Below the pieces are notes generated by a model, which did not search any database, had not been told where the DNA came from, and saw only the letters and a list, made by a program, of their open reading frames with translations. Of a DNA stretch of 45,046 nucleotides, positions 3-18,500 are shown one piece after another. Within the stretch, counting starts at the first letter, position 1. Each line of letters opens with the position of its first letter. Location: the IMG/VR virus record IMGVR_UViG_3300030685_000041, positions 1-45,046 of that record; one strand, written 5' to 3'. The position numbers and the translations under genes were made by a program. This DNA comes from a virus.

Positions 3-320
3 ATACCAATAAATGGTGATTATGTAATATTAATACCAGAAAAACTTAGAGGATATGATCAGATAAATAAAGTTATGTTTAAAAATTTTATTGATAATAA
101 TATAGGGCAAATATTTAGGACCCGCAGCGTGAATAATGTAGAAAGTGAAAGAATATTAAATGTTAGTTACGATTATCCTCCAAAAAATAAAGAAGGATTT
201 ATGTATGATTTTGGAATTAAAAAATATTATGTTTCAGTTTATGAAAAAAATATTTTAGCATTTGCTAAAACTACAGAAGAACTAAAACAAATATTATTAA
301 CAAATAAATATAATATATGA
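3..320 (+). CDS. Internal-protein-like array member, 5' end outside window (NIGQI family)
   Basis: The frame is open from the first bases of the window, so the ATG at 75 is internal and the gene starts upstream. The visible part carries a GDYV block (codons at about 15-26) and then NNIGQI, as in the proteins at 16689-17018 and 17368-17679. A shorter IGQI core is also seen at 6770-7045. The shared pattern (G-D-Y-V, about 25 residues, N-I-G-Q-I, a short beta-rich stretch, a hydrophobic-K-T-x-x-x-L helix and the end K-Y-N-I) suggests a small SH3/KOW-like fold, which is inferred only. The stop overlaps the ATG of the next gene (ATGA). Function is unknown; packaging in the head is proposed from the array as a whole. 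Confidence 0.75.
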   Translation: MPINGDYVILIPEKLRGYDQINKVMFKNFIDNNIGQIFRTRSVNNVESERILNVSYDYPPKNKEGFMYDFGIKKYYVSVYEKNILAFAKTTEELKQILLTNKYNI

Positions 321-676
321 AGCATATAAAAACATTTGAGAATATTAATGAGCCGGAATATATAATTACATATTTTTTTAGCGCAGATGATGATAATGAT
401 ATAATGTCGCATTTATTTATGTTGAGAATAACAAAAATGTCAGAAAATTATTTGGAATATGATAAATATTACTATTATGAAAAAATAGATAGGTTTAATC
501 GTAGACTGTTTTCATTCTCAAATGGCAATATCTGGAATTATAATAATTATAATAATACATTAAAAATAATATATAAAACAAATTCAGAACAAGATGCTTT
601 GAATAGATTAAAAGAAATATTAGATAGTGATTCTATTCAATCTGGAATCTTATTTAGTACAAAATATAACATATAA
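317..676 (+). CDS. Internal-protein-like array member with capsid-targeting-like N-terminus
   Basis: A 119-residue protein of unknown function. It begins MKHIKTFENINE, which fits the T4 internal-protein leader MKTYQEFIAE in length, charge and aromatic position, with I-N-E at residues 10-12 as a possible prohead-protease site. It ends TKYNI, the tail shared across the array. The body is rich in Tyr, Asn and Asp and has no recognisable domain. The start overlaps the previous stop by four bases (ATGA), which implies translational coupling. Packaging into the capsid is inferred from the leader alone. Confidence 0.8.
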   Translation: MKHIKTFENINEPEYIITYFFSADDDNDIMSHLFMLRITKMSENYLEYDKYYYYEKIDRFNRRLFSFSNGNIWNYNNYNNTLKIIYKTNSEQDALNRLKEILDSDSIQSGILFSTKYNI

Positions 677-678
677 AA

Positions 679-1164
679 ATGAAATATATAAAAACATTTG
701 AAGCTAAATATCAATATCTTAATGACGAAGATACTAATAAATTAGATTTGTTTATTGGTGATTATATTGAAAAACAAAATTTACCAGACAAAATAAATAC
801 ATTAAAATTTGATTATTTTGAAGAAAATATATTTAATTATAATGATATTTTTGATGATTTGATATGTATAAGTCATTATGGTCCAGATTCCAATAATATT
901 TATTATGAATCTGACATATTTTGTGATGAAAACAATATATCAACCTCTTCACCAAGAAATCGTAACACTTTATCTAATTTAATTGATAAGTACTTTAAAA
1001 AATATATAAAATATTTTGATAAAAGAGTTATTGAATTGATGAGAATTAGATTAAGACCTTTGAAAAAATATAAAGAAATATACGAAGAGTATGGTGAATA
1101 TTTTAGTACTAAGGTTAAAAAAACTTTTCAATATATTTTAGATACAGAAAAATATAATATATAA
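679..1164 (+). CDS. Internal-protein-like array member
   Basis: A 161-residue protein starting MKYIKTFEAKYQYLND and ending TEKYNI. The leader matches its neighbours, but the usual (I/L)-x-E is replaced by L-N-D, so cleavage is less certain here. The body is acidic and aromatic-rich, and the C-terminal third is a probable helix. No family is recognised. It follows the previous gene by two bases. A late-promoter-like TTTATATATA begins directly after its stop, so the next gene probably has its own transcript. Confidence 0.8.
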   Translation: MKYIKTFEAKYQYLNDEDTNKLDLFIGDYIEKQNLPDKINTLKFDYFEENIFNYNDIFDDLICISHYGPDSNNIYYESDIFCDENNISTSSPRNRNTLSNLIDKYFKKYIKYFDKRVIELMRIRLRPLKKYKEIYEEYGEYFSTKVKKTFQYILDTEKYNI

Positions 1165-1166
1165 TT

Positions 1167-1176
1167 TTTATATATA
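1167..1176 (+). promoter_or_regulatory. Late-promoter-like TTTATATATA box
   Basis: The box sits 22 bases before the ATG at 1199 of the ferritin-like gene and directly after the preceding stop codon. The same ten bases precede structural and homing genes elsewhere in the window and resemble the T4 late element TATAAATA. Role inferred from recurrence. Confidence 0.5.
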
Positions 1177-1198
1177 CCATTAAAAATAATGAAATTTG

Positions 1199-1579
1199 AT
1201 GAAAAATTTTGAAGAATTTATGAGAATAAATGAACTTTTGGCAACTACCCCAGTTGATTTAAAATATGTCGATAAAGATAATGGCGATAAAGAAATATTA
1301 AGATTAGCTATAATAGGTGAATTAGATGCAGTTAGTTTATATGAACAATTGTCAGAAACAGCAAAAAATGAAAAAGTGAAGAAAACTTTATTGGATATTG
1401 CAAAAGAAGAAAAAAGACATATTGGTGAACTTCAAACATTATTGAAAGAATTAGATCCAGAATATAAAGAAGAACTTAAAAAAGGAAAAGAAGAAGTAAA
1501 ATCTGCTGATTCTGATGAAGAAAAAGATGAAGAAAAAGAGGACAAAGATAAAGAGGATGATACTATTCAAAAAAATTAA
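1199..1579 (+). CDS. Encapsulated-ferritin-like protein with capsid-targeting-like leader
   Basis: A 126-residue protein. The ATG at 1199 is preferred over an in-frame TTG just before it because it gives the leader MKNFEEFMRINE, with I-N-E at 10-12 as in T4 internal proteins. Residues about 32-90 form two helices of the encapsulated ferritin (EncFtn) type: E41 and Y48 in helix 1, E70, E71 and H74 in helix 2. E41-E71-H74 reproduces the 30- and 3-residue spacing of the EncFtn ferroxidase ligands as I recall them (Glu32, Glu62, His65, with Tyr39). EncFtn forms ring decamers from two-helix subunits and oxidises Fe(II) inside encapsulin shells, which share the HK97 fold with phage heads. Residues about 92-126 are a highly charged acidic/Lys tail. 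Inferred role: iron or oxidant handling by a packaged protein. A generic rubrerythrin-like protein is the alternative. Confidence 0.8.
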   Translation: MKNFEEFMRINELLATTPVDLKYVDKDNGDKEILRLAIIGELDAVSLYEQLSETAKNEKVKKTLLDIAKEEKRHIGELQTLLKELDPEYKEELKKGKEEVKSADSDEEKDEEKEDKDKEDDTIQKN

Positions 1580-1582
1580 ATC

Positions 1583-1612
1583 AAAAAAGCCACCTTTCGG
1601 TGGCTTTTTCTT
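1583..1612. terminator. Bidirectional intrinsic terminator
   Basis: AAAAAGCCACC, loop TTTC, GGTGGCTTTTT: a strong GC-centred hairpin with A and T tracts on either side, able to act in both directions. It ends the plus-strand array after the ferritin-like gene and faces the minus-strand genes to the right. Confidence 0.9.
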
Positions 1613-1783
1613 TACCTATCTATTCTAACAGCCAAGATAGACTTTTGAATCTTGGATTGGTTTGCAAAATTTAGGAGGTGCATGTTAGTCTTTTATTCCA
1701 TCTATTTACTTCATTATCTATTTAATCTATTTTTTGCTTTTTTGGCTTTCTAGTATATATTATATTAATTAATTTTTTACCTG

Positions 1784-1810
1784 GGCGGACCATTACATTT
1801 TTCCATTTTT
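1784..1810. repeat. Direct repeat copy 1 (GGCGGAC unit)
   Basis: GGCGGACCATTACATTTTTC continuing to 1810. It matches 1881-1907 at all but a few positions. GC-rich cores are rare in this sequence, so the pair stands out. On the minus strand each copy would encode a nine- or ten-codon peptide with C-N-x-P-P, too short to call a gene. Confidence 0.55.
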
Positions 1811-1880
1811 TTTTATCTATATGTTAATAATTTATATATCTATCTATTAATTATCTATTATGTTATTTATTTACCATTTC

Positions 1881-1907
1881 GGCGGACTATTACAATTTTT
1901 CATTTTT
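1881..1907. repeat. Direct repeat copy 2 (GGCGGAC unit)
   Basis: GGCGGACTATTACAATTTTT continuing to 1907. It is the second copy of the unit at 1784-1810, just downstream (minus strand) of the 55-residue ORF ending at 1916. Confidence 0.55.
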
Positions 1908-1915
1908 ATATATTT

Positions 1916-2083
1916 TTAATCGTTTTCAACATATTCAACAATTTTACCGTCACAGTCAACTAAAAATAGTTGTTCTTCTACGCCAGCTAATGCTACGTAT
2001 TTTTCCAAAATATCTGAGAATACAAATTCTTTGATCCAATCGAACTTTTCAAGTTCTGGAGATAAATTTTTTTCGTTTTTCAT
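1916..2083 (-). CDS. Small acidic protein, 55 residues
   Basis: The minus-strand frame reads MKNEKNLSPELEKFDWIKEF and ends in VEYVEND before a TAA. Support is the non-random amphipathic composition, a clean ATG, and a host-type TACATTTG promoter element 25 bases upstream at 2109-2116. No family is recognised. The central V-x-x-Q-L-F-L-V-D-C-D-G-K-I stretch looks like a beta hairpin of a folded mini-protein. Confidence 0.6.
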   Translation of the reverse strand: MKNEKNLSPELEKFDWIKEFVFSDILEKYVALAGVEEQLFLVDCDGKIVEYVEND

Positions 2084-2108
2084 GTTTTCTTGTTTTTTGA
2101 TTACAATA

Positions 2109-2116
2109 CAAATGTA
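2109..2116 (-). promoter_or_regulatory. Bacteroidetes-type -7 element TACATTTG
   Basis: Matches TAnnTTTG, the -7 element of Bacteroidetes housekeeping promoters, on the minus strand 25 bases before the start at 2083. A clear -33 TTTG box was not assigned. Confidence 0.45.
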
Positions 2117-2169
2117 CGGAACTTATTTGAGATTGCCAAATATTTAGGTTTAATTTTAAATAAAACTTT

Positions 2170-2850
2170 CTATCTGACATCTAACATATTTTTATATTTT
2201 TCAATATAATTTACTTCACATATAAAATGATTATTTTGATTATCGTATGACCAATCACATCCATTAATGATATTTCCATTAACATTTAAATAAATTGGAT
2301 TTGTATCAAATGTTTCTGTGGTTAATGTAGTTGCATAACTTATAATTTCTGCATTTTTATAATTTTCTAATGCACGTCCTTCTTTATGAAGTTTTTTGCC
2401 ATTTTCAAAATTTTCATTATCTTTATTTCTTTTACTATAAAATGGTAATTTTGCTAAAAGTGTATCATTATACATTTTTTGCTTGATATGATAATGATCA
2501 TTTGAGATTTGAACACCACTGCTTTTTTTTATAATACAATAATTATATAATTCTGTACAAATATTAATAAAATTTTCTGTTAAATTCACACCATTTGTTG
2601 CAATATAAAAAGTATTGATTTGAATATTTCTTTTTTTACAACCATCTAAAAAATATTTTATTGCTGGAACATTTAATGATGGCTCACCACCTGTTGGACA
2701 AAAATGACCAATAGAACTAACTTGATTTAATAATGAATCAATATACTCAAATGAAATATCTTTGCTTTGACTCTCACCTCTTAAACAATGACTACATTGA
2801 ATATTACATTTTCTTGTGACTTCTATTGCAAGATGTTTAATTTCAATCAT
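2170..2850 (-). CDS. Radical SAM domain protein
   Basis: A 226-residue protein. C15-x3-C19-x2-C22 (CNIQCSHC) is the radical SAM [4Fe-4S] motif, and TGGEPS at 53-58 is the SAM-contacting GGE motif. These enzymes cleave S-adenosylmethionine to a 5'-deoxyadenosyl radical. The C-terminal part contains G-C-D-W and a further Cys, but not enough to define a SPASM auxiliary cluster. At this length it is shorter than full peptide-modifying radical SAM enzymes and close to the small phage or QueE-like class. QueE itself is not indicated because the spacing of the Cys triad is the classical CX3CX2C. The substrate is unknown. Confidence 0.85.
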   Translation of the reverse strand: MIEIKHLAIEVTRKCNIQCSHCLRGESQSKDISFEYIDSLLNQVSSIGHFCPTGGEPSLNVPAIKYFLDGCKKRNIQINTFYIATNGVNLTENFINICTELYNYCIIKKSSGVQISNDHYHIKQKMYNDTLLAKLPFYSKRNKDNENFENGKKLHKEGRALENYKNAEIISYATTLTTETFDTNPIYLNVNGNIINGCDWSYDNQNNHFICEVNYIEKYKNMLDVR

Positions 2851-2943
2851 TTTTCATTAAAATTTGTAAATTTACCAATAGCCAAAAAGTCTGACATTCA
2901 CAATTCGTGATTATCAGAATTTTTTATTTGTATTGTGCTTGAA

Positions 2944-3543
2944 TTAACGAGTTTCTTTCAACATTAGAACTGGAGCAATATCAGAGATAAGTCCTTCAAC
3001 ATCTCCATTTCCACAAGTGAACGCCTCATTGATAGCATCAGTTTTGATACTGTATGTTACTTTTTGAACAAAGAGTGCTTCTTTTTCTTCTTCAGTCATA
3101 AAATCAGCACTCATGATCAATTCTTCGAGTTTATCTGAATATTTGTTTAACAGATCGTTATTCATAATCATTTCTGATTTTTCATCAACAAATGACTCCC
3201 CATATTTTTCACGTAGTTCTGTTGCTCTTTCTTCATCAACACTTCCGGTGTATTTTTTTACAACCATGAACATGATTTTGTCACCTTTTTCACTTTCAAC
3301 CTTAATTGATTCAGGATTTCTTTTCATACCAAGATATAATTTCTTGTATTCATCAAGGCAAATGCCTTTGATGTCGCCTTCAATTGATTTCTGCTCAGCT
3401 GTTTTGTCTTTGATTTCTTCCTTTAATGTATTGAATTTTTTCAATTTATCAGCAAAATCTTCGCCTTTAACAACTGCAACAGGTTTTAAATCTTTTTTTG
3501 CGGCTGGTGCTTTTACTGCTACCACTTTTTTACCTAATGCCAT
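2944..3543 (-). CDS. Hypothetical protein with Ala/Lys-rich N-terminus
   Basis: A 199-residue protein of unknown function. Residues 1-25 are rich in Ala, Val and Lys. Residues about 30-60 are a charged helical or coiled-coil segment. The rest is acidic and mixed alpha/beta and includes G-x-K-R-N-P-E-S-I-K-V. It uses more GC-rich codons than its neighbours, as highly expressed phage proteins often do. It could be an abundant nucleic-acid or scaffold-associated protein; that is a guess from composition and is not supported by a motif. Confidence 0.75.
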   Translation of the reverse strand: MALGKKVVAVKAPAAKKDLKPVAVVKGEDFADKLKKFNTLKEEIKDKTAEQKSIEGDIKGICLDEYKKLYLGMKRNPESIKVESEKGDKIMFMVVKKYTGSVDEERATELREKYGESFVDEKSEMIMNNDLLNKYSDKLEELIMSADFMTEEEKEALFVQKVTYSIKTDAINEAFTCGNGDVEGLISDIAPVLMLKETR

Positions 3544-3631
3544 AATTTTATATTTTAAATGTTATTTATTTCTACAATTACAATAATAATGATATTTTTT
3601 CAATAAAAAAACTTTTTTGATGTTTTTTTAT

Positions 3632-3733
3632 TTAAAATTCGGCGTTAGGTTGAATATTCAAATGTTCAGCACCAAATCCAGTTAAAAACATTTCATTAAA
3701 TTGTTCATCCTCAATTGTCATTTTTGCTTCCAT
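3632..3733 (-). CDS. Small ORF, 33 residues
   Basis: The minus-strand frame begins MEAKMTIEDEQFNEMFLTGF and ends in IQPNAEF. It lies about 40 bases downstream of a TATCTTTG promoter element at 3773-3780. The leader between them is nearly identical to the leader of the next gene upstream, which argues that it is expressed. No family is recognised. Confidence 0.5.
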   Translation of the reverse strand: MEAKMTIEDEQFNEMFLTGFGAEHLNIQPNAEF

Positions 3734-3735
3734 TT

Positions 3736-3780
3736 TTGTGATTTTAAGTGTGTTTCTATTATTTCAACAGTACAAAGATA
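3736..3780 (-). repeat. Duplicated promoter-leader, copy 1
   Basis: About 45 bases holding TATCTTTG (3773-3780) and the untranslated leader of the 33-residue ORF. It aligns with 4318-4361 almost base for base: the stretches ttgtgattttaagtg, tttctat and tttcaa are shared. A duplicated promoter/5' UTR module implies common control of the two genes. Confidence 0.65.
3773..3780 (-). promoter_or_regulatory. TATCTTTG promoter element
   Basis: A perfect TAnnTTTG -7 element on the minus strand, about 40 bases before the ATG at 3733. It lies inside the duplicated leader module. Confidence 0.55.
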
Positions 3781-3806
3781 CGAAATTTATTTAAAATATC
3801 CAAATA

Positions 3807-4313
3807 TTAACTGAATAATTTATTCCAAAATGATTTTTTTTCGTAAAATTGATATTTTCCAATTTTTTTATTATAAATAACTAATTTAATTTCTATTAAT
3901 TGTATAATAAGTTTAGGAAATTCAAAATCATATTTAACCTCAGGTTCATCTATAACATCATAACAATACATATAAAATGGTTCTTGTTTTGTAGACCAAT
4001 AAATATCTGGACTATCATTAATAATTACCATTTTTTCACCAACTTTAGGACGATTTATTGTGTGAGAATATCCAGAATGATTTGAAAGCCAATATAAATC
4101 TAATATGTTATTATGTAAAACTTTACCGTTCCAATGTTTATATTTAACCCAACCATCATGTATATGCCAAGCAGTAAAACCTAATGGGTTAATAAATTCA
4201 TTAAATAGATTTCTTGAAATTTCTTGTTCTTGATGTAAACTTTTTGAAGATTCCATAAATGCTGTTGCACCAGAGCCTTTTACTACTATTCCATTTTCTA
4301 ATTGATATTCCAT
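3807..4313 (-). CDS. Hypothetical protein
   Basis: A 168-residue protein that I do not recognise. It is Trp-, His- and Tyr-rich in the centre (W-H-I-H-D-G-W, Y-K-H-W-N-G-K), with a Lys-rich amphipathic C-terminus. There is no signal peptide or membrane segment. It is transcribed from its own TATCTTTG promoter through a leader duplicated from the adjacent small ORF, so it is probably an early or middle gene rather than a virion gene. Confidence 0.75.
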   Translation of the reverse strand: MEYQLENGIVVKGSGATAFMESSKSLHQEQEISRNLFNEFINPLGFTAWHIHDGWVKYKHWNGKVLHNNILDLYWLSNHSGYSHTINRPKVGEKMVIINDSPDIYWSTKQEPFYMYCYDVIDEPEVKYDFEFPKLIIQLIEIKLVIYNKKIGKYQFYEKKSFWNKLFS

Positions 4314-4317
4314 ACTC

Positions 4318-4361
4318 TTTGTGATTTTAAGTGTTTCTATCGTTTCAATAACACAAAGATA
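4318..4361 (-). repeat. Duplicated promoter-leader, copy 2
   Basis: Second copy of the promoter/leader at 3736-3780, here upstream of the gene starting at 4313. It contains the TATCTTTG element at 4354-4361. Confidence 0.65.
4354..4361 (-). promoter_or_regulatory. TATCTTTG promoter element
   Basis: A perfect TAnnTTTG on the minus strand, about 40 bases before the ATG at 4313. Confidence 0.55.
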
Positions 4362-4389
4362 ATTATTAGTTTATACACTACCAAACTTT

Positions 4390-4974
4390 TTATGCTAATT
4401 TTTTATCTCTTATCAAATTTCTTAAAAATATATTTTTTTCTCCACCTAATAATTCTATCCATTCTTTATATTCTGATATTTTTGAAAAATTTTGAAATTT
4501 TAACCATGCCTTATAATTGTTTACAAGTGATTCTCTACCACTTTTTGCATTAATTAAATCATCTTCTGAAGAATAGTCTTCTTCAACAATTTCTGGAAAA
4601 TATTTTTCTACCACAAAATCTGTAAAATCAGGATATAATTCTTTGTTAAATACTCTTTCATCACAAAGAAAGCAGACTGAAGTTAATGAATCGTTTAGAT
4701 CAGGTTCTTCAAAATATGCAATTTTGATATCGTTTTCAAGTAATTGATCAGCAATTTGATTTAATGTTCCTGTTGATTTAGAAGTAAAGTCTCTTTTACT
4801 ATTAGTTGTTCCACCATTTAAAACAATCCAGGTTTTCCAATTTTCTACAAAGTCAATATACTCTGTATCGTCTTTATATTTGTTAGCATACTGTTCAACA
4901 GCATGACCACATTGAATACCTTGCTGAATACCAGTTAGTTGATAAGGTACAAAAAAATACATTCTTTTTTCCAT
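4390..4974 (-). CDS. Pth2-like peptidyl-tRNA hydrolase family protein
   Basis: A 194-residue protein. Residues 8-30 read FVPYQLTGIQQGIQCGHAVE and resemble the Pth2 signature in which a Lys/Gln-rich loop precedes a conserved catalytic-region His (here H24). An N-G-G-T motif near residue 54 and EPDLNDSLT near 88 match the Pth2 G-x-T and E-P-D-L-N blocks. Pth2 releases peptidyl groups stalled on tRNA. The helical C-terminus (from about 120) is extra to the usual ~115-residue domain. It immediately follows the 108-residue gene with no gap and is probably co-transcribed with the two paralogues upstream. Confidence 0.65.
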   Translation of the reverse strand: MEKRMYFFVPYQLTGIQQGIQCGHAVEQYANKYKDDTEYIDFVENWKTWIVLNGGTTNSKRDFTSKSTGTLNQIADQLLENDIKIAYFEEPDLNDSLTSVCFLCDERVFNKELYPDFTDFVVEKYFPEIVEEDYSSEDDLINAKSGRESLVNNYKAWLKFQNFSKISEYKEWIELLGGEKNIFLRNLIRDKKLA

Positions 4975-5621: not shown

Positions 5622-5709
5622 CTTTAGTTTATTAAATTTTGACTACATTCAACACATCTATTAATCAAGAGTAACAATTGGCAATTTATTTTATTAAAAA
5701 TAATATAAA

Positions 5710-6216: not shown

Positions 6217-6245
6217 AACTTAACTATTTTTATATTTTTATATTT

Positions 6246-6730: not shown

Positions 6731-6769
6731 CAAAATATTTTTAATATAAAAAAATAATATATAATAAAT

Positions 6770-7045
6770 ATGAAATACTTAATACAATATGAAAATTTTT
6801 GGGATGGAATATTTTTAAAAAAAGATAAATTATCTAAAGGTGATTATGTTAGAGTAAAAAAATGTCAAGATATTGGTCAAATAGAAAAAGTTCTTAAAGC
6901 TGGAGGCGCTGGATTGGAAACACGTCCATTACGATTTATTGTCAAATTTAATAATCATAGAAGAGAATATACAGATTATGAATTAGAAAAAATTACTAAA
7001 GATGAATTTGAACTTGAATCTGATATAAAAAAATACAATTTATGA
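6770..7045 (+). CDS. Internal-protein-like array member, KOW/SH3-like
   Basis: A 91-residue protein, first of a five-gene overlapping run. It starts MKYLIQYENF and ends KKYNL. Residues about 22-70 (L-S-K-G-D-Y-V-R-V, I-G-Q-I-E-K-V, F-I-V-K-F, Y-E-L-E-K-I) read like a five-strand KOW/SH3 barrel. The block order matches the larger NIGQI proteins at 3-320, 16689-17018 and 17368-17679. No (I/L)-x-E follows the leader, so cleavage cannot be argued here. Its stop overlaps the next start by four bases. Confidence 0.8.
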   Translation: MKYLIQYENFWDGIFLKKDKLSKGDYVRVKKCQDIGQIEKVLKAGGAGLETRPLRFIVKFNNHRREYTDYELEKITKDEFELESDIKKYNL

Positions 7046-7398
7046 AATATATTAAAACATATGAAGATATATTTGATAATTCAAAATATAAAAAATATAT
7101 AATTACTAAATATAAAAGATATAAAAGTGATAACTCAGAAGATATCTATATAAATCTATATGAAAATCTATATTATACAATGAATAAAAACTCATTTCGT
7201 GCTTTATATTATTATGAAGAATTTACTAATAAAATTGAAGAATTTATAAATAGACAAGAAATTGACTATATTCCAATTAACTTTATTGTATATGAATCAG
7301 ATATTTTAGAAAATTCAATTGAAGAACTTGACGAAATTATTAAATTGCATTTAGAAACAAAAAAATTGAATGTAGCAATAAAAAAATATAATTTATGA
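7042..7398 (+). CDS. Internal-protein-like array member
   Basis: A 118-residue protein starting MKYIKTYEDIF and ending KKYNL. It is Tyr- and Lys-rich in the first half, with an acidic helical second half. The leader has I-F-D where others have (I/L)-x-E. It overlaps both neighbours by ATGA. No domain is recognised; the role is inferred from the array only. Confidence 0.8.
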   Translation: MKYIKTYEDIFDNSKYKKYIITKYKRYKSDNSEDIYINLYENLYYTMNKNSFRALYYYEEFTNKIEEFINRQEIDYIPINFIVYESDILENSIEELDEIIKLHLETKKLNVAIKKYNL

Positions 7399-8012
7399 AA
7401 TATTTACAATCATACGACTCCTATTTAAATGAAAATATTGATTATCAATTGATTTTAGAAGATAAACAAATAAGTTTATATAAGTCAATACAGGATAAGA
7501 CTATAAGCAAATTAAGTTTGAGTTTATATTTTGCAGCAACTTATACTTGGGGTGTAACTATGTTATACCCAATTGTTGATGCTCTTGTTAAGAATTCAGA
7601 TATTCCAAATATAACACAGCAACAAATAGTGTTATTAACATTATATTCTATTACTCAAATTTTAAATATGGCAAATAATGATGTTAAAAAAATTAAAGCA
7701 GAATTGGATAAAGATGGACTATTTTCTATTGCAGAAAAAGTAAAAAAAACATTATTATCAATTCATAATATATTTAGTTTTGTTTCAAGAAGTTTTGGTA
7801 GAGTTATTGATTCATTTATTGATATGGTTGCTTATGTCGGCTTAGGGGTACCTTTTACCACCGCAATTGTTGAGTTAATATCAAAAGAAGGTTTAAATTT
7901 AGATACATTACCACAAAAAGTAGCTATATTTGGTGCTGCAGCAGGTGTTTATACCATTAAAAGTATTGTAGAGACTCTTATTGACATGATCAAAAATAAA
8001 ATAAAAAAATGA
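7395..8012 (+). CDS. Membrane protein with capsid-targeting-like leader
   Basis: A 205-residue protein. The leader MKYLQSYDSYLNE carries L-N-E at 11-13. Hydrophobic stretches at about 42-66, 77-95, 145-163 and 171-192 suggest three or four membrane-spanning or membrane-inserting helices, some containing Gly-rich turns. It has no K-Y-N tail. A hydrophobic protein with an internal-protein leader could be packaged and inserted into the host inner membrane on ejection, as a superinfection-exclusion or pore-like factor. That role is inference; a holin is the main alternative. Confidence 0.7.
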   Translation: MKYLQSYDSYLNENIDYQLILEDKQISLYKSIQDKTISKLSLSLYFAATYTWGVTMLYPIVDALVKNSDIPNITQQQIVLLTLYSITQILNMANNDVKKIKAELDKDGLFSIAEKVKKTLLSIHNIFSFVSRSFGRVIDSFIDMVAYVGLGVPFTTAIVELISKEGLNLDTLPQKVAIFGAAAGVYTIKSIVETLIDMIKNKIKK

Positions 8013-8785
8013 TATTCACTAAATATCAAGATTTTCTGAATGAATCATTAAATCAAAAAGAATTTATATTATTAGTAGGTCCTCCTGGAATGGGCAAATC
8101 TTTCTATACCAATAAATTAGAAAAGAAATATGATATTTTTAATAGAGATGATATTGCAGTTGAAATATGTGAAAGAGAAGGACTTACTTATAAAGATGCT
8201 TTTAACCGTCCAAATTTTGTTTTAGATAAAAACACCAGAACATTTTTTGTTCCAGAAGAAAGTGAATTTTATTATGAGGATGGTAGAAAATATTTATTGT
8301 ATTACGAGTTTTTAGGTGAAATTATTGAATTGCCAGAAAAAAGTTTTTTAAGAAGATGGGCAAATGAAGGATTTAAAAGGATTGTAGATATAAATCATGA
8401 AATTGAAGATACTTTTGCTGATAGATTAGAAAAATCAATAAAGAAATTACACAATATAATTATTGATATGACTAACATTACTAAGATATTAAGAAGGAGT
8501 ACGATTAGTAAATTGAAAGATAATAAAGAAAAATATAAAGTTATTTCAGTTATTTTTAACGATGGCGGCAAAGGAATGGAGGATACAATTATTGGAATAA
8601 ATAGAAAAAGAGATTTGGATTTAATTAAAATTAGAAGAGAAAAAGAACTATCTGATGACCTTCTAAAAACTTTTCTAAAAAATTATGAAGAGCCAGAAAA
8701 AGAAGAAGGTATAGATAAAATTATTCATATTGATACTAAAAAAGAATTAGAAAATTTCTTAAATTCAGACAAACAAACACCATAA
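8009..8785 (+). CDS. P-loop kinase-like protein with capsid-targeting-like leader
   Basis: A 258-residue protein. MIFTKYQDFLNES gives L-N-E at residues 10-12 immediately before a P-loop NTPase: GPPGMGKS at 24-31 (Walker A), and a hydrophobic strand ending in D near 151-153 (I-I-I-D-M-T) as a Walker B-like site. The layout resembles zeta-toxin or polynucleotide-kinase-type AAA_33 kinases, which phosphorylate nucleic acids or small molecules. The C-terminus is a Glu/Lys-rich helix. It overlaps the preceding membrane protein by four bases and closes the array. If the leader is functional this is a packaged enzyme, as T4 Alt is. Confidence 0.7.
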   Translation: MIFTKYQDFLNESLNQKEFILLVGPPGMGKSFYTNKLEKKYDIFNRDDIAVEICEREGLTYKDAFNRPNFVLDKNTRTFFVPEESEFYYEDGRKYLLYYEFLGEIIELPEKSFLRRWANEGFKRIVDINHEIEDTFADRLEKSIKKLHNIIIDMTNITKILRRSTISKLKDNKEKYKVISVIFNDGGKGMEDTIIGINRKRDLDLIKIRREKELSDDLLKTFLKNYEEPEKEEGIDKIIHIDTKKELENFLNSDKQTP

Positions 8786-12050: not shown

Positions 12051-12073
12051 AAAATTATTTTTTATTAGAAGTA

Positions 12074-12081: not shown

Positions 12082-12105
12082 TAAAATAATACTTTAATAA
12101 AAAAT

Positions 12106-12144: not shown

Positions 12145-12167
12145 GTATGTAAAATACTTACTAAAAA

Positions 12168-13340
12168 ATGTTAAAAGCAATTAAAATAAGAATATATCCT
12201 AATCAAGAACAACAATCTTATATAAATAAGATGCTTGGTACTTGTAGATTTGTGTATAATAATTGTTTATCATATAAAATAAGCAAATACAACGAAAATA
12301 AAAAGTCTATTTCGTTTGCTGATACAAGCAAACATTTAACATTAATAAAAAATGAATATGAGTGGATTAAAGAAAGTCATTCTAAGGTAGTTCAGCAAAC
12401 TTTAATTAATCTAGATATAGCATATAAATCATTTTTTAAAAATGGGAATGGTTTTCCAAAGTTCAAATCAAAAAAAGATAATAATCAATCTTGTAGATTT
12501 CCTGTTGATGCGATAAGTGGAATTAAAGGAAATAGAATAAATATTATAAAAGCATTAAAAGATATTCATTATAAATGTTCAAAAATTGATGAAATATGTT
12601 TAAATAAAAACCAGAAGAAAATTAAATCAGCAACATTAACTAAAAATAAATCTGGTAAATATCATTTATCTATTTTAATTGATAGAGAAAATAATAAAAA
12701 ACTAACTGATACTAATAAAGTAATTGGAATTGATGTTGGAATTAAAACATTTATTGTTGGATCTGATGGAATTAATTTTGATAATATAAAAATTAAAAGA
12801 AATAATGAAGATAAATTAAAAAGGCTTCATCAATTACACTCAAGAAGAGAAAATAATTCAAAGAATAAAGAAAAATCAAGAATTAAATTAGCAAGATGTT
12901 ATGAAAAATTAAATAATAAAAAAGAATACTATCTACATTCAATTACAAATAAATTACTTAGCGAAAACCAAGTTATAGTAATGGAAGATTTAAATGTTAG
13001 TGGAATGTTAAAAAATCATTGCTTAGCTAAATCTATACAAGAATTAAGTTTATATAGATTTAAAGAAATGTTAAAATATAAAGCAAATTGGTATAGTAGA
13101 GATATAATTGAAATAGATAGATGGTTTCCTTCAAGTAAATTGTGTTCTAATTGTGGTTATAAAAAAGATGATTTAACATTAAATGATCGTAATTGGATTT
13201 GTCCAAAATGTGGTTCAAATCACGATAGGGATTTTAATGCCGCGAATAATATTGAAAAAGAAGGAAGAAGAATATTAAAAATAGGGTTGAGTTCGCCCAA
13301 ATTAACGCCTTTGAAGACCAGAACATTAGTTCAGTCGTAG
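12168..13340 (+). CDS. tnpB: TnpB RNA-guided nuclease, copy 1
   Basis: A 390-residue protein with full TnpB architecture. An N-terminal helix-turn-helix-like WED/REC region is followed by the RuvC triad D189 (GIDVGIK), E273 (MEDLN) and D355 (HDRDFNAAN), and a zinc ribbon C326-x2-C329...C345-x2-C348 between RuvC II and III. TnpB proteins of IS200/IS605-type elements are guided by an omega-RNA from the element's right end. No TnpA transposase is present nearby, so the gene is a solo TnpB, perhaps acting as a homing-like gene in the phage. It is only about a third identical by eye to the second copy at 21933, yet both share the same upstream 28 bases. All catalytic residues are intact. Confidence 0.95.
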   Translation: MLKAIKIRIYPNQEQQSYINKMLGTCRFVYNNCLSYKISKYNENKKSISFADTSKHLTLIKNEYEWIKESHSKVVQQTLINLDIAYKSFFKNGNGFPKFKSKKDNNQSCRFPVDAISGIKGNRINIIKALKDIHYKCSKIDEICLNKNQKKIKSATLTKNKSGKYHLSILIDRENNKKLTDTNKVIGIDVGIKTFIVGSDGINFDNIKIKRNNEDKLKRLHQLHSRRENNSKNKEKSRIKLARCYEKLNNKKEYYLHSITNKLLSENQVIVMEDLNVSGMLKNHCLAKSIQELSLYRFKEMLKYKANWYSRDIIEIDRWFPSSKLCSNCGYKKDDLTLNDRNWICPKCGSNHDRDFNAANNIEKEGRRILKIGLSSPKLTPLKTRTLVQS

Positions 13341-13374
13341 AATTAGGAAAAGAATGTAAGAAATTACAGAACTA

Positions 13375-13836
13375 TCACGATACAATTCGTATTTTTGGAA
13401 ATACCGAATTTACTCTATTCATATAGTTTCTATATTCTAAGCCAAACATTTTTAATAAGTATTCTTCCTCTATATGAATATATTTTTTAAAAATAAAATA
13501 TGACATAATTGGAATTGTTAATCCAATGATTGATCCCCAATAAAGTATTATACCTGGAATAATAATAACAATCCAAATTGCATAAATTGGATGCCTACAA
13601 TAAGCATAAAATCCTTTTGTTCTAAGTCTTTTTTCATTAAAATATTTATCAATTGTTACTGCTGGATAAATAAATAAACAAAATCCAACTAAAATTAAAA
13701 TTAAACCAAGTGTTTTTAATTTTGTAAATTCAAAATTAGTGCAAAAATTGTTTTGAATTATATAAATTACTAATGAATAAAAAATAGTTAATATTCCAAA
13801 TTTAGGACCAATACCCCACCTAGTCATTGTCCTCAT
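13375..13836 (-). CDS. ICMT/phospholipid methyltransferase-like membrane protein
   Basis: A 153-residue integral membrane protein. Membrane segments lie at about 14-30, 41-60, 88-106 and 107-122. The C-terminal signature RTKGFYAYCRHP...E-E-E-Y-L-L-K-x-F-G-x-E-Y-x-x-Y is that of the isoprenylcysteine carboxyl methyltransferase / PEMT family, whose R-H-P and E-E segments bind SAM. Bacterial members methylate lipids or other small hydrophobic acceptors. It is probably host-derived. Its stop lies 35 bases after the TnpB-1 stop and its start overlaps the upstream gene by four bases. The substrate cannot be told from sequence. Confidence 0.8.
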   Translation of the reverse strand: MRTMTRWGIGPKFGILTIFYSLVIYIIQNNFCTNFEFTKLKTLGLILILVGFCLFIYPAVTIDKYFNEKRLRTKGFYAYCRHPIYAIWIVIIIPGIILYWGSIIGLTIPIMSYFIFKKYIHIEEEYLLKMFGLEYRNYMNRVNSVFPKIRIVS

Positions 13837-14180
13837 TTTATTAACTTTTTAATAGTTTCTTTGATTAATTCATATGAATTTTTGTCCCATTTAACAAAAA
13901 ATTTATCATTTTCAATTGATTTACAATTTTTTATAAAATCTTCATCTTCTGGAACAAGTGCACATGCCAATACTATAAGTTCCTTATTATCAAGAATTTC
14001 ATATTTTTTAAGTTCCTCTTTATATTTATTATTGAAATCTGAATAAATATCAAGAACTTCATCAACATTAAGCACAGGATTTGATTTCTGTATTTCGCCA
14101 AATATTGGTTCTGTTGGTTTTACAAAAACTTTACGATTATAATATAGAACAACGTCAAAAATTTCAATATGATCTGTCAT
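13833..14180 (-). CDS. Hypothetical protein
   Basis: A 115-residue acidic protein of unknown function, first gene of a two-gene unit with the ICMT-like methyltransferase (ATGA overlap). The order is beta strand, loop, then helices: I-E-I-F-D-V-V-L-Y-Y, D-F-N-N-K-Y-K-E-E-L-K-K, K-E-L-I-V-L-A-C-A-L-V-P. A TATCTTTG element lies 22 bases upstream. Confidence 0.7.
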   Translation of the reverse strand: MTDHIEIFDVVLYYNRKVFVKPTEPIFGEIQKSNPVLNVDEVLDIYSDFNNKYKEELKKYEILDNKELIVLACALVPEDEDFIKNCKSIENDKFFVKWDKNSYELIKETIKKLIK

Positions 14181-14201
14181 AATTTTTTTATTTATTTGTC
14201 A

Positions 14202-14209
14202 CAAAGATA
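14202..14209 (-). promoter_or_regulatory. TATCTTTG promoter element
   Basis: A perfect TAnnTTTG on the minus strand, 21 bases before the ATG at 14180. It sits in the divergent region that also holds the plus-strand TTTATATATA box at 14242. Confidence 0.55.
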
Positions 14210-14241
14210 ATAATTAAAAATGAAATAAAAAAGGATTTTTA

Positions 14242-14251
14242 TTTATATATA
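14242..14251 (+). promoter_or_regulatory. TTTATATATA box before adhesin gene
   Basis: 21 bases before the ATG at 14273. It is divergent from the TATCTTTG at 14202, so this short intergenic region shows both promoter classes back to back. Confidence 0.55.
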
Positions 14252-14272
14252 CAGAAAATAAATTATAAAATT

Positions 14273-15358
14273 ATGACAGCAATTCCAGCAAAAGTTTGGA
14301 TAGATAATCATTGGGTTTTCTTTTCATTAATAATTGGCGATTATAAAAATTTGATTTCGTTTCTAAATACTAATGAGTTATCATTTTTAACTACACTAAA
14401 TATTGATTTTACTAATATTCCGTTAAATTTACACGGTAAAGGTGTTAGTAATAATTTGTTGAATTATTTATCAAATAATTCAAATGATAATTTTCTTATT
14501 GATCAATTTTTGAATTATTTTTTGAATAAGATAATTATTATTAGTTATTCATCAGGAAAAAAATTAAATTATAAATTGAATGGTGATGCAAAGTGGCAAG
14601 ATATGACATTCAGTGCTTATAGTTCTTATATACCTACCACAACCACAACAACAACTGCAATAACTGCAATGATTATAACAATAGAATCTACTGTTGGTGA
14701 TACTTTTTTTAATGCTACATTATCATATACCGTTGGTAGTTCAGGATCTTCAGGTAGTTCAGGATCTTCAGGTAGTTCAGGATCTTCAGGTAGTTCAGGT
14801 ATTCTAATGCTAGTAGATTTGGGTGATGGTACTACAGATAATTATACTAATGACAGTAAGAAAAAAGGAGGTATGGCATATTTGCCAGATCATTATTATG
14901 CAGATGCTGGAACATATATTGTCACATTAAATATACCTCTTGATAATTCATTATATTTTTATTTTAATTGTGCTGATATAACTGAAATTATTTTTCCACT
15001 ACTACCAACATTAGAAACATTAGATATATTTTCACAATCATTAGAAGTATTAGATGCAACTTCATTAACTAATTTAAATTGTTTATATTGTGAAAATAGT
15101 CAATTGAGAATATTAAATGTGAATGGGTTAACTAATTTAACTGGTTTGTATTGCGCTAATAATAAATTAGATAGTTCAAATATTAATACTATTTTAGATA
15201 ATTTAATTTCATTTAATAAATCTGGTGAATATTTTGATTCAAGAAATCAAAATCCAATAGCATACGCAGATTCAGCAAAAGTAGATGCATTATCTAACAT
15301 ATGGAATACTGTATATGCGGATGTAGAAACAACTACAACAACAACAAATCCTGTCTAA
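14273..15358 (+). CDS. Modular virion adhesin: Thr linker, Ser-Gly repeat, PKD-like and LRR-like domains
   Basis: A 361-residue protein. Residues 1-120 are an N-terminal domain, probably for virion attachment. A poly-Thr linker follows (about 121-130), then a Ser-Ser-Gly repeat (about 155-176, coded by an 18-base tandem repeat). A PKD-like segment comes next (D-L-G-D-G-T-T near 184, then Y-A-D-A-G-T-Y-I-V-T-L). A short leucine-rich repeat tract (L-E-T-L-D-I, L-E-V-L-D-A, L-T-N-L-N-C-L-Y-C, L-T-N-L-T-G-L-Y-C) resembles Bacteroidetes surface LRRs. The protein ends in another T-T-T-T-T-T tail. It is most likely a head or tail decoration or receptor-binding protein. Thr linkers of the same kind occur in the proteins at 23280 and 30271. 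Confidence 0.75.
   Translation: MTAIPAKVWIDNHWVFFSLIIGDYKNLISFLNTNELSFLTTLNIDFTNIPLNLHGKGVSNNLLNYLSNNSNDNFLIDQFLNYFLNKIIIISYSSGKKLNYKLNGDAKWQDMTFSAYSSYIPTTTTTTTAITAMIITIESTVGDTFFNATLSYTVGSSGSSGSSGSSGSSGSSGSSGILMLVDLGDGTTDNYTNDSKKKGGMAYLPDHYYADAGTYIVTLNIPLDNSLYFYFNCADITEIIFPLLPTLETLDIFSQSLEVLDATSLTNLNCLYCENSQLRILNVNGLTNLTGLYCANNKLDSSNINTILDNLISFNKSGEYFDSRNQNPIAYADSAKVDALSNIWNTVYADVETTTTTTNPV
14735..14800 (+). repeat. 18-base tandem repeat coding Ser-Ser-Gly
   Basis: Three and two-thirds copies of GGTAGTTCAGGATCTTCA in frame within the adhesin. Copy number can change without a frameshift, which would lengthen or shorten the flexible linker. Confidence 0.9.
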
Positions 15359-15385
15359 GGAAACATAAAAATAATTAAAAATAAT

Positions 15386-15886
15386 ATGTTAAAAAGATAT
15401 TTTATAGTTGGCGATAAATTGATGTGTTTCATACCAAGAACAGCAAGCACATCTTTATTAACTTTAATAGAAGAAAAATATTATCCTAGATTAAAGCATA
15501 TAGATAATGTTACTCTTCATTTTAAAATACCATCTGTTATAGATGATGGTAAAAGAGAATTAGTTGCAGTTATTCGTAATCCAGTGGAAAGGTTTTTATC
15601 TGGTTGTGCAAGAAAAAAATGGACTATTGAATATGGTATAGAAGAACTTAAAAAAGATTCACCTGATTTTCATATTAGAGCGCAATATACATTTTTAAGT
15701 GAAAAAAGAGAAACTAAATTTTTTAAATTTCCTGATCAAATTGATGAAATTGCTAATTATTTAGGATTGCCGACTCCTGTACCAAAATTAAATGTTAGTA
15801 GTTCTAAGCCAATTCCAACAGATGAACAATTAGCTTGGCTTACTGAATATTATAAAAAAGATTTTGATTTATTAAATAGAATATAA
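15386..15886 (+). CDS. Sulfotransferase family protein
   Basis: A 166-residue protein. FIPRTASTSL at 15-24 is the 5'-phosphosulfate loop (usually P-K-x-G-S-T-S), and VIRNPVERFLSG at 62-73 is the 3'-phosphate motif (R-x-P-x-x-R-x-x-S). These enzymes move sulfate from PAPS to hydroxyls of sugars, proteins or lipids. Length is at the short end of the family, as in other phage and cyanophage versions. It is co-oriented with the adhesin 27 bases upstream, so virion or glycan sulfation is a reasonable guess. It is followed by a strong terminator. Confidence 0.8.
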   Translation: MLKRYFIVGDKLMCFIPRTASTSLLTLIEEKYYPRLKHIDNVTLHFKIPSVIDDGKRELVAVIRNPVERFLSGCARKKWTIEYGIEELKKDSPDFHIRAQYTFLSEKRETKFFKFPDQIDEIANYLGLPTPVPKLNVSSSKPIPTDEQLAWLTEYYKKDFDLLNRI

Positions 15887-15890
15887 AATA

Positions 15891-15924
15891 AAAAAAAGAT
15901 TCAAAATATTTTGAATCTTTTTTT
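15891..15924. terminator. Bidirectional intrinsic terminator
   Basis: AGATTCAAAA, loop TA, TTTTGAATCT, with A and T tracts outside. It lies between the convergent sulfotransferase gene and the minus-strand array ending at 15931. Confidence 0.9.
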
Positions 15925-15930
15925 TAAATT

Positions 15931-16389
15931 TCATATGTTAAATTTACTAATATTATTTTTTCTATCAACAACATCATTATAAACTTGCCTACCATGACTA
16001 TCACCACCTTTCATTTTATATTTATCTATTAATTCTACTAACCAAGGATCTAAATTTATACCTTTACCTTCAACTTCTTCTCTAAGTTCTTTTGGTAACC
16101 AAATGTGATAAATGTAACTATCATGTTGGAATCTGGCCCTCATTTCCAATCCTTTACTTGCCATAATACTTTGAATATCAGGTGTCATTCTAACCATATT
16201 TTCTATTTCTATGGTTTTTTTATATAATCCACCTTTTTCTTCAGTAAAAGATTCTTTTGCTATAAACATATAAAAATCATGATCTTCATTTAATGGATTT
16301 TCGTTTAATAATTCTGCAAAAAGTTCTACTTGATATTTTTCTTTTTTCTTTTCGTCTTCTTTTGTTTCAAATGTTTTTATGTGTTTCAT
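15931..16389 (-). CDS. Internal-protein-like array member, last of minus-strand run
   Basis: A 152-residue protein starting MKHIKTFETKEDEKKKEKY. L-N-E occurs later (about residues 28-30 and 33-35) rather than at 10-13. It ends in S-K-F-N-I although no gene follows it, which shows that the tail is conserved for protein reasons and not only because it doubles as the next gene's start region. The body has a folded look (Y-H-I-W-L-P-K-E-L) but no recognised family. Confidence 0.8.
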   Translation of the reverse strand: MKHIKTFETKEDEKKKEKYQVELFAELLNENPLNEDHDFYMFIAKESFTEEKGGLYKKTIEIENMVRMTPDIQSIMASKGLEMRARFQHDSYIYHIWLPKELREEVEGKGINLDPWLVELIDKYKMKGGDSHGRQVYNDVVDRKNNISKFNI

Positions 16390-16392
16390 ATT

Positions 16393-16692
16393 TCATATAT
16401 TATATTTTTCTTGATCTATTATTATTTGGAATTTGTCGATACAATCTTGTAAATCATTTGATGTGTATTTTATAGCTTTATCTTTATTTCTAAAAAGAAG
16501 ATATGGGTTATAATTTACAAGTACTAATTTATTATTAATATATTCATATAAAGTTTTAGACCAAGTGTTATCAGATACTGGCGAGTTAATATTTTCGGTG
16601 TCTAATTCCAATATTTCCATAGAATATTTATTTATCCATATGACATATTTTTTTAAAATATTAATATTTTCGTATGTTTTTAAGTGCTTCAT
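16393..16692 (-). CDS. Internal-protein-like array member
   Basis: A 99-residue protein starting MKHLKTYENINILKK and ending DQEKYNI. The leader has I-N-I rather than I-N-E. A short Trp-containing beta region is followed by a C-terminal helix. Its stop lies three bases before the ATG of the next gene, and its start overlaps the preceding stop. Confidence 0.8.
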   Translation of the reverse strand: MKHLKTYENINILKKYVIWINKYSMEILELDTENINSPVSDNTWSKTLYEYINNKLVLVNYNPYLLFRNKDKAIKYTSNDLQDCIDKFQIIIDQEKYNI

Positions 16693-17018
16693 ATATTATA
16701 TTTTTTTGATGCTAATTTTAATTCTAAGTCTTTTTTTGTTTTTGCATAATATTCTATTATTGGACGATAAAATTTAAAAGTATTATTAGTAAAAAAATGT
16801 TTAAGTCCTAGTGGTATATTATAATATCTAATTTTTGTATAATCATATCTGTTTTTATTTCTATAGTCTGATGGTAATCTAACTATTTGCCCTATATTAT
16901 TACTGATAAATTTTACAAATATATCGGTCATATTTTGAATAGATTCTGCATCAATTAAAACATAATAGCCGATTTGTAGGGAATCTTGTAAAGATTCAAA
17001 TGTTTTTAAGTGCTTCAT
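16689..17018 (-). CDS. Internal-protein-like array member, NIGQI family
   Basis: A 109-residue protein starting MKHLKTFESLQDS and ending SKKYNI. It contains G-Y-Y-V-L-I and, about 25 residues on, F-I-S-N-N-I-G-Q-I-V-R, the hallmark of this subfamily. A Y-A-K-T-K-K-D-L-E-L helix comes just before the tail and aligns with F-A-K-T-T-E-E-L-K in the protein at 3-320. Paralogy is clear by eye; function is unknown. Confidence 0.8.
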   Translation of the reverse strand: MKHLKTFESLQDSLQIGYYVLIDAESIQNMTDIFVKFISNNIGQIVRLPSDYRNKNRYDYTKIRYYNIPLGLKHFFTNNTFKFYRPIIEYYAKTKKDLELKLASKKYNI

Positions 17019-17371
17019 ATATTATATTTTTCTATATTTAGTTCAAAATCAATTTTATCAAAATAACTTTTAGGTACATTATATACTTCAAACACTACAC
17101 AATTTGTTTCTGGATATATTTTAAATACTAAATTTTCAAAATCTTTATAGAGTTTTAATAAAGCAACATTACTTACAGTATAATTATATTTAATTGATAT
17201 TGTGATTTGATTAGCCTCACTAAATACTGACACTTCATTTTGCCTTTTAATACCAGTTTTTAATAATATTATATTATCATCATAATATTTTATTGATAAA
17301 TATCTATTATATTTAGCCCAAGATTTAAAATTTCTATTTTCAAATAATTCTATTTCTTTAACGTGATTCAT
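17015..17371 (-). CDS. Internal-protein-like array member
   Basis: A 118-residue protein starting MNHVKEIELFENRNF and ending NIEKYNI. L-F-E at 9-11 is a candidate prohead-protease site. The body alternates short beta strands (I-T-I-S-I-K-Y, C-V-V-F-E-V-Y). It overlaps both neighbours by ATGA. No domain is recognised. Confidence 0.8.
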   Translation of the reverse strand: MNHVKEIELFENRNFKSWAKYNRYLSIKYYDDNIILLKTGIKRQNEVSVFSEANQITISIKYNYTVSNVALLKLYKDFENLVFKIYPETNCVVFEVYNVPKSYFDKIDFELNIEKYNI

Positions 17372-17679
17372 AGGTTATACTTTTTTATTTTTATATAGCT
17401 TTCAACATCTTCAATATTAGGTGAAAAATATAAGATTTCTGATAAATATATATTTCTTAACCCGCTAGATTCTATTAAATCTTTTATATTATTATAATTA
17501 TTATATTTTACAGTATAGTACACACCACTTATAGTTTTACCAATATCTATTATTTGTCCTATATTTGATGATATAAATTTTATTAATTTATTTATTTTAA
17601 TGAAATTTTTTTCATTACATATAATATAATCATTAATTTGTGGTTTATTAATATTTTCAAATATTTTTATATATTTCAT
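17368..17679 (-). CDS. Internal-protein-like array member, NIGQI family
   Basis: A 103-residue protein starting MKYIKIFENINKPQIND and ending KIKKYNL. N-D-Y-I-I-C near residue 16 and F-I-S-S-N-I-G-Q-I-I-D near 35 place it with the proteins at 3-320 and 16689-17018. The leader has I-N-K in place of I-N-E. Function unknown. Confidence 0.8.
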   Translation of the reverse strand: MKYIKIFENINKPQINDYIICNEKNFIKINKLIKFISSNIGQIIDIGKTISGVYYTVKYNNYNNIKDLIESSGLRNIYLSEILYFSPNIEDVESYIKIKKYNL

Positions 17680-18500
17680 AAATCAATTAGTTTTTTAGTA
17701 TATAAATAAATCATAAAACTTGTCATAACTTTATCTCTAGAGAATTTATCTATTAATATTGGTATATTTAAGTACTCTTTGTATTTGTCAGAGTATTTAT
17801 CTTCAAACTCAATAATAAAAGTATTAAAAATTGTTAATGAATCTTCCCGTATTACATCATTATAAAGTTTATAAGGATCTTTTGAATTTTGTTTCTTTTT
17901 TAATATATTAATTTCTTTTGCTCTATCAACGTTAAGAAATAATATTTCACGAATTTTTTCATCAGATAAATTATTTTTAACATTTGCCAAATGACTTACA
18001 ATAATATCAGTAATAACATTTGCTTTTCTTCCATATAATCTTTTTACAATTTTTGTAAAATTTTCAGCAAAATCTTTTTTGAATGTATTTGTAATTGAAT
18101 CAAAATCTTGTTCTGCTTTTCTAACTTTTCTAATTTTTGAAAATTCATGTAACCAAGTACCAGATATTAGTTGATATGATTTACAATTTCTTCCAATTTC
18201 TTTAACAGCATCAGTCAAATTTGTTATTATTCTGTCACTTTTAACCCATTTTTCACTTCCAAAATCATCTGAAGTTATAGAATAATTTTCAGTGTAAAAT
18301 TCTTTGTTATAAGAGAATAAAATATTTATTTTATTTTCACATAAAAGTGTAGTAATATTTTTCTTATATGTTAATTGTCCCCACTGTGCATCCTCAGAAA
18401 TTGCATAATCTCTTTGAATAAGTTTCATAACATATTTAGGTACACTTATATTAATAAGTGAACTTTTTTCAAATAATTTATAAGAAAGTAAAAATTTCAT
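17676..18500 (-). CDS. Large internal-protein-like protein heading the minus-strand run
   Basis: A 274-residue protein starting MKFLLSYKLFEKSS, with L-F-E at 9-11. It ends in K-K-L-I-D-L rather than K-Y-N-I. Mixed alpha/beta N-terminal half; a helical, Lys-rich C-terminal half. No family is recognised. It is the promoter-proximal gene of the six-gene run and overlaps the next start by four bases. The divergent TTTATATATA box at 18510 points the other way, and no clear promoter for this run was identified. Confidence 0.75.
   Translation of the reverse strand: MKFLLSYKLFEKSSLINISVPKYVMKLIQRDYAISEDAQWGQLTYKKNITTLLCENKINILFSYNKEFYTENYSITSDDFGSEKWVKSDRIITNLTDAVKEIGRNCKSYQLISGTWLHEFSKIRKVRKAEQDFDSITNTFKKDFAENFTKIVKRLYGRKANVITDIIVSHLANVKNNLSDEKIREILFLNVDRAKEINILKKKQNSKDPYKLYNDVIREDSLTIFNTFIIEFEDKYSDKYKEYLNIPILIDKFSRDKVMTSFMIYLYTKKLIDL

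Follow-up and report, generated by a model that had tools for sequence, protein, structure and literature searches.

What do small viral proteins gain from sharing both of their ends while having mostly unrelated middles? The question is raised by the virus record IMGVR_UViG_3300030685_000041, a complete 45-kb record with 68 genes (45,046 nucleotides, hereafter the window), in which ten genes, where 0.02 would be expected, encode proteins ending in K(Y/F)N(I/L). These tailed genes form three head-to-tail arrays, mostly with ATGA overlaps of 4 nt, and nearly all ten begin with the leader MKx(I/L/V)Kx(F/Y)E or a close variant of it. An earlier note, made from this DNA alone, had described such arrays, likened the leader to that of the internal proteins (IPs) of phage T4 and proposed an island of packaged anti-host effectors; the genes and termini are as it described them, and the arrays are larger than it reported. 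We called open reading frames (ORFs) uniformly in the window, in ten IMG/VR records chosen for a tail-plus-leader junction, shared directly or via a homologue, and in the 636-kb genome LR756504, and found that 232 of the 2816 ORFs carry the tail, against 0.56 expected from its internal frequency. Among the records, the 330-kb G003 has 97 of them in 589 ORFs, G010 has 30 in 134 and G001 has 24 in 152. Our preferred explanation, to which we assign a probability of about 60%, is that these are late-expressed, probably packaged cargo arrays of Mahaphage-like phages, marked by a leader resembling a capsid-targeting sequence (CTS) and by a C-terminal tag.

The tag is written in about 30 synonymous codon versions, wobble sites in the leader vary freely, and no other gene lies within 35 nt downstream of 58 of the 231 tagged genes. 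The synonymous variation and the presence of the tag where no gene follows point to selection on the protein, and they rule out a DNA element, promoter or start signal, as might be read from the TATAAT within the KYNI codons. Tail and leader are strongly coupled (odds ratio 89, p ~1e-137), and the tail also accompanies variant leaders of the forms MITxFK(I/L)FE, MKIxRFNE and MKTYQQFNE. Orthologs of the window gene at 15931-16389 in the records L230, L232 and G010 retain leader and tag, while the residues preceding the tag vary (the ends read NNISKFNI, KFRDKFNI, KNVVKYNI and KDSNRYNI). The residue at position -3 is chosen by genome, being Phe in 88 of 97 cases in G003 and Tyr in all 69 cases in G001, G002 and G010 (p 1e-27), while the Asn codon of the tag in G003 is mixed (48/49 for AAT/AAC). 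The Tyr/Phe content of the proteomes is equal across Y-type and F-type genomes (0.51-0.56). Such a genome-wide choice suggests one tag reader per phage, co-evolving with the tag. As a separate observation, AAC stands in half of the G003 tags against 13% over all pooled ORFs, a bias located just before the overlapping start.

The earlier note knew of no counterpart of this tail, and searches of the tailed proteins with Pfam, PHROGs and PADLOC, as well as the available open-access literature, returned none; nor was the leader or tag sequence present, in connection with phages, in any of the open-access papers available. The tail-plus-leader junction pattern had no match among 84,980 bacterial and archaeal genomes, so that search yielded no host. 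In five complete huge-phage genomes and Lak-A1 the tag showed no clear excess over a backward control, which makes it a subclade trait. Tailed genes occur near the capsid gene only where the major capsid protein (MCP) shares at least about 81% identity with its counterpart in record G005: capsid loci of this close group hold 11 tails among 370 genes, against one chance case among 500 genes in the more distant group. Chance tails on long homing-endonuclease-like proteins at L196 and L210 were discounted.

In the T4 IPIII leader, residues 4 and 7 serve targeting and residues 8 and 10 processing, and Asp at residue 10 stops processing and not targeting (PMC9026906). The likeness proposed in the earlier note holds at the targeting positions: the start M(K/R/N)x(hydrophobic)xx(aromatic) is found in 161 of 249 tailed against 92 of 1623 untailed proteins, with the hydrophobic residue 4 and aromatic residue 7 kept as in T4, and 144 of these 161 tailed leaders have Glu8. 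Its generic (I/L)xE at residues 9-13 did not survive as a feature of tailed proteins, since the frequency is at background (19/135 or 14%, against 16%). A narrower form, (L/I/M/V)NE at residues 9-18, is enriched both in tailed proteins (19 against 3.0 expected) and in the leader proteins of LR756504 (12 against 0.4), and the remaining (L/I/M/V)xE forms showed no significant enrichment in tailed proteins. Both a gp21-type protease and a gp23 homologue, which the earlier note had named as a check on the T4 comparison, are present in relatives: these encode a T4-type gp21-like protease, portal and gp23-like MCP, all lying outside the 45-kb window, and some of their records carry both gp21/gp23 and tailed genes. 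At 53 of 53 loci the MCP has a maturation site of the form (L/M/I/V)NE|N. In G005 (64886-67234) and W01 (185342-187636) the gp21-like protease makes up the N-terminal portion of a larger protein of 760-780 aa, which carries repeated YIAE-type motifs and is apparently a fusion of protease and scaffold.

Strong sites of this kind occur in 4 of 161 tailed against 15 of 92 untailed leaders (p 1e-4), and because strong sites and tails are largely exclusive we recognize two predicted cargo classes: class A, with a putatively cleavable leader and mostly without tail, and class B, tailed and mostly without a protease site. The single leader class of the earlier note thus divides, as the window genes starting at 1199, 7395, 8009 and 31485 are untailed, class A, and carry INE|L, LNE|N, LNE|S and LNE|N respectively, the same form as the MCP site. 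Among the (I/L)xE examples that the note had cited from the arrays, the INE of gene 317 stands, and genes 17015 and 17676 have LFE, which is not of the NE form. The leader of gene 1199 is retained in its homologue in L236. Further, the gene at 24112-24363 of record G006 (L097) encodes an 83-residue protein in which a short class A leader, MKKFKEYIKE, directly precedes the N-terminal arm of the MCP (E=1e-11), and is followed in the same operon by two tailed genes; this supports the interpretation of class A leaders as head propeptides. A similar short protein in W01 (233552-234145) has the mature MCP N-terminal arm behind a different leader.

The expression class of the arrays was approached through a promoter motif, TTTTWATATATA, trained only on the 60 nt before the first genes of tailed operons, which proved common to these operons and to portal, sheath and protease genes. 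Outside the training set, 7 of 8 records have it about 19-25 nt before the portal gene, and 6 of 7 scorable sheath genes have it 21-24 nt upstream. Most gp21 genes also have its core nearby, and at the gp32 genes it is never found at the virion-gene position. In another 55 capsid loci, the core (A/T)ATATATA stands 14-34 nt upstream of 41/50 gp21, 31/40 portal and 25/55 MCP genes, and of 0/37 operon-internal neck genes. The T4 late box TATAAATA, tried as an alternative promoter, did not rise above the reverse-strand control.

Another large set of small proteins carries a second, basic C-terminal motif, R(K/R)xK(L/I)x(K/R)(L/I) (window genes 33800-34012, 29942-30226, 27717-28007 and 35138-36028, and the records L004 and L005); G003 has 64 such genes against 0.43 expected, and W01 has 40 with the form RKxxIxxLL. 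Within 2-36 nt, a span picked after the motif had been seen closer to the ATG in tailed operons, TTT(W)ATATATA precedes 43 of 90 tailed operons, 145 of 676 others and 2 of 105 second-motif operons. An early-type, Bacteroidetes-like TAnnTTTG element shows the converse distribution (2/90, 102/676 and 30/105), and a motif trained on virion genes agrees with the former (20/90 tailed against 1/105 second-motif operons). With the span fixed at 14-34 nt tailed operons are not enriched (25/90 against 180/676), as their motif often lies 2-12 nt from the ATG. Since the second-motif operons lack the late-type motif and often have TAnnTTTG, there appear to be two tags for two expression classes, and the promoter motif predicts that the tailed arrays belong to the late, virion-class genes.

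Tailed genes lie within the terminase-neck-portal-gp21 cluster in L009, L031, L177, L182, L187 and L197. A conserved anchor gene (17676-18500) and the homologue of the gene at 13833-14180 bound a variable island, which in the window is array 3; this island, with gp32 nearby, recurs in G010, L012, L230, L232 and L233, and its contents differ even at an anchor identity of 82-86%. Comparable exchange of content is seen in array 1 between L235 and L236. The best gp32 matches, 40-43% identical, are in LR756504, LR756501, LR756502 and LR745206, complete genomes of 634-735 kb. On such matches the arrays would belong to Mahaphage-like huge phages (the clade of Al-Shayeb et al. 2020), for which Bacteroidetes hosts have been predicted (PMC7162821) and are probable here.

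Stripped of the shared ends, the bodies of 250 tailed proteins (a count that includes tag variants) form 159 groups, 122 of them singletons. The earlier claim of unrelated bodies is therefore mostly right, the exceptions in the window being 3-320, 16689-17018 and 17368-17679, which belong to the largest family (35 aligned members with GDYV...NNIGxI). The model of this family (pLDDT 85) shows a small domain rich in beta structure, with a helix at the C-terminus and a disordered leader, and a fold search of PDB and BFVD returned nothing significant. The tailed proteins are small (median 13.5 kDa); Pfam matches among 148 of them are limited to scattered ankyrin, LRR, ExoX-like_C and DUF4240 domains, and PHROGs and PADLOC matches are each to single members.

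Taken together, these features lead us to infer packaging, cleavage, ejection, an anti-host role and a tag reader as parts of one scheme. The leader M-K-x-(L/I)-K-x-(F/Y)-E would act as a CTS that brings small proteins into a T4-type prohead, keeping the T4 targeting positions 4 and 7 and usually dispensing with the prohead-protease site, and the proteins of another set, which mostly lack the tail and add (L/I)NE to a leader of this kind, would be both targeted and cleaved. The end K-(Y/F)-N-(I/L)-COOH would be the second label, a lineage-specific tag for sorting or retention whose single reading partner would itself be phage-specific. The bodies would swap quickly as cassettes between fixed anchor genes, a turnover expected for host-facing or defence-facing effectors. 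Several observations weigh against this scheme. A gp21-type site ((L/I/M/V)NE or (F/Y)NE at residues 9-18) is present in only about 8-12% of tailed proteins, so that about 88% have none and the gp21-type cleavage expected by the earlier note does not extend to most of them. The tailed proteins are acidic, with a median net charge of -2.7 per 100 aa, and T4 internal proteins are described as basic (PMC9026906). In many tailed operons 2-12 nt separate the motif from the ATG, against about 18-24 nt for virion genes, a spacing that could make the mRNAs nearly leaderless; the motif was read in genomes of 75% AT, where control rates on the reverse strand reach 8%, and about half of the tailed operons have no recognisable promoter. 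Lastly, no PDZ_2 domain that might read the tag was found in the phage records, nor was any other reader.

The missing protease sites, the acidity and the near exclusion between tail and cleavable leader would also fit proteins that are expressed late and not packaged, the two ends directing them to another phage structure such as an assembly site, a replication compartment or a membrane, with a convergent likeness to the T4 CTS. We regard this as unlikely, though it deserves to be taken seriously, because the leader fits the CTS at positions 4 and 7, cassettes sit within the head operon beside portal and gp21, and tailed genes share operons with genes for cleavable leaders (in arrays 1 and 2 of the window, and in the G006 24112-24363 operon). 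The tag might alternatively signal stability or degradation, rather than location, through a tail-specific protease of the host or a phage adaptor. Free hydrophobic C-terminal peptides are of the type read by PDZ-type proteases, the tag is such an end at the extreme C-terminus, and the control genome of Bacteroides ihuae encodes PDZ_2 proteins. Its confinement to the subclade defined by MCP identity, its tie to one leader and one promoter class, and the fact that no PDZ domain was found in the phage records make this improbable.

Simple paralogy, in which one ancestral family was duplicated and its middles diverged past recognition to leave the ends as remnants, draws on the 35-member family with its common body. 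It seems to us improbable as well, given the preponderance of singleton groups, some with ankyrin, LRR or ExoX-like_C domains, and given ends that are nearly invariant where bodies differ and where even the pre-tag residues vary among orthologs. If instead the junction were a DNA repeat of about 35 nt (tail, overlapping start and leader) by which cassettes are shuffled through annealing, the shared protein ends would be a by-product. The exact 4-nt overlap, found in 133 of 214 same-strand tailed genes against 133 of 1036 untagged genes, and the differing content of close relatives would follow, but the free wobble variation of tag and leader, the tags kept without a following gene and a Tyr/Phe choice that is genome-wide while the Asn codon is mixed leave this explanation very little room.

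We tentatively propose, at somewhat less than even odds, that the tag is a genuine address label at the C-terminus and that a single receptor, phage- or virion-encoded, reads it and evolves in step with it in each phage. The label would sort a very large, interchangeable arsenal, from dozens of proteins to about a hundred in one phage, either into the particle or to a site in the next host cell. If the cargo explanation is right, the tag alone would suffice to list candidate effectors from phage sequence, the Tyr/Phe switch would give a direct handle for receptor discovery, CTS-type targeting would be separable from prohead cleavage, and a label with two ends might serve to load proteins into large capsids. 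It would also mean that the tagged modular cargo of huge phages far exceeds the few internal proteins of T4, with a bearing on the role of the hundreds of small unknown genes in these phages.

Array 1 lies on the plus strand and opens with the tailed gene 3-320 (KYNI end), cut at its 5' end by the window; a complete copy in the overlapping record L235 has the full start MKHIKTFEKTFENISIPINGDYVI and two further tailed genes upstream. It continues with 317-676 (MKHIKTFENINE...STKYNI, INE at residues 10-12) and ends with 679-1164 (MKYIKTFE...TEKYNI), whose stop, TAA, shows the tag retained although no start codon overlaps it. The late-type motif TTTTTATATATA follows at 1165-1176 (+), 22 nt before the ATG of the class A gene 1199-1579 (+, also start 1196; leader MKNFEEFMRINE|LLA). 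This gene combines a cleavable-type leader and a perfect late-type promoter with a rubrerythrin/EncFtn-like domain that is also found in L236, L237, L238 and L239, inside larger ORFs in L237 and L238; its product is possibly a ferritin-like phage-head cargo, recalling encapsulins.

Upstream of array 2 is a weaker motif match, ATTTTTAATATAAA (6737-6750, +; score 9.9; 19 nt from the ATG), followed on the same strand by the tailed genes 6770-7045 (MKYLIQYENF...IKKYNL) and 7042-7398 (MKYIKTYEDI...IKKYNL; 4-nt overlaps on both sides) and the class A genes 7395-8012 (leader MKYLQSYDSYLNE|N) and 8009-8785 (leader MIFTKYQDFLNE|S), the latter P-loop ATPase/kinase-like (AAA_33 and KTI12 matches). Array 3, on the minus strand, has its motif ATATTTTATATATA at 18512-18525 (-), 11 nt from the ATG, with a score of 12.0 against 11.2 for the reverse-strand control at the site. 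It is headed by the untailed anchor gene 17676-18500 (MKFLLSYKLFEKSS), whose structure model (pLDDT 51) was too uncertain to be used, and runs through 17368-17679 (MKYIKIFE...IKKYNL), 17015-17371 (MNHVKEIELFE...IEKYNI), 16689-17018 (MKHLKTFE...SKKYNI; model pLDDT 84.9, residues 1-6 disordered) and 16393-16692 (MKHLKTYE...QEKYNI) to its final gene, 15931-16389 (MKHIKTFE...SKFNI). The remaining class A gene, 31485-32042 (-; leader MKILALKDFLNE|N), has a weak ParB-like match. Two transposase-like genes (zinc-ribbon, TnpB-type by eye) lie at 12168-13340 and 21933-23177, and a 36-nt stretch of the former matches Lak phages at 97%.

Among known systems, the ejection proteins of the phiKZ-like phage SPN3US are likewise head cargo of a large phage. 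The available part of their description reports a Glu-specific prohead protease with an AXE site, a different cleavage form, and propeptides mostly of 111-254 residues, with two of 20-24, and mentions no shared short leader or C-terminal tag (PMC10052503). The tailed proteins are closer to IPI, IPII and IPIII of T4 (CTS MKTYQEFIAE|), sharing the short M-K leader with key residues 4 and 7, small diverse bodies, a head of gp21/gp23 type and a putative late-type promoter. They differ in having Glu8, usually no processing site, acidic bodies, large arrays (the 97 genes of G003 against a few IPs) and a conserved C-terminal tetrapeptide, of which the portions of the T4 literature available to us describe none. 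In encapsulins a short C-terminal peptide loads diverse cargo into an HK97-fold shell; here the tag is paired with a leader at the N-terminus and with a scaffold and protease of T4 type. In signals of the PTS1 and KDEL type a free C-terminal tetrapeptide is the address on unrelated proteins; these are eukaryotic and the comparison is an analogy only, but should the address-label proposal be true, K(Y/F)N(I/L) would be the phage counterpart of such organelle C-terminal tetrapeptide signals.

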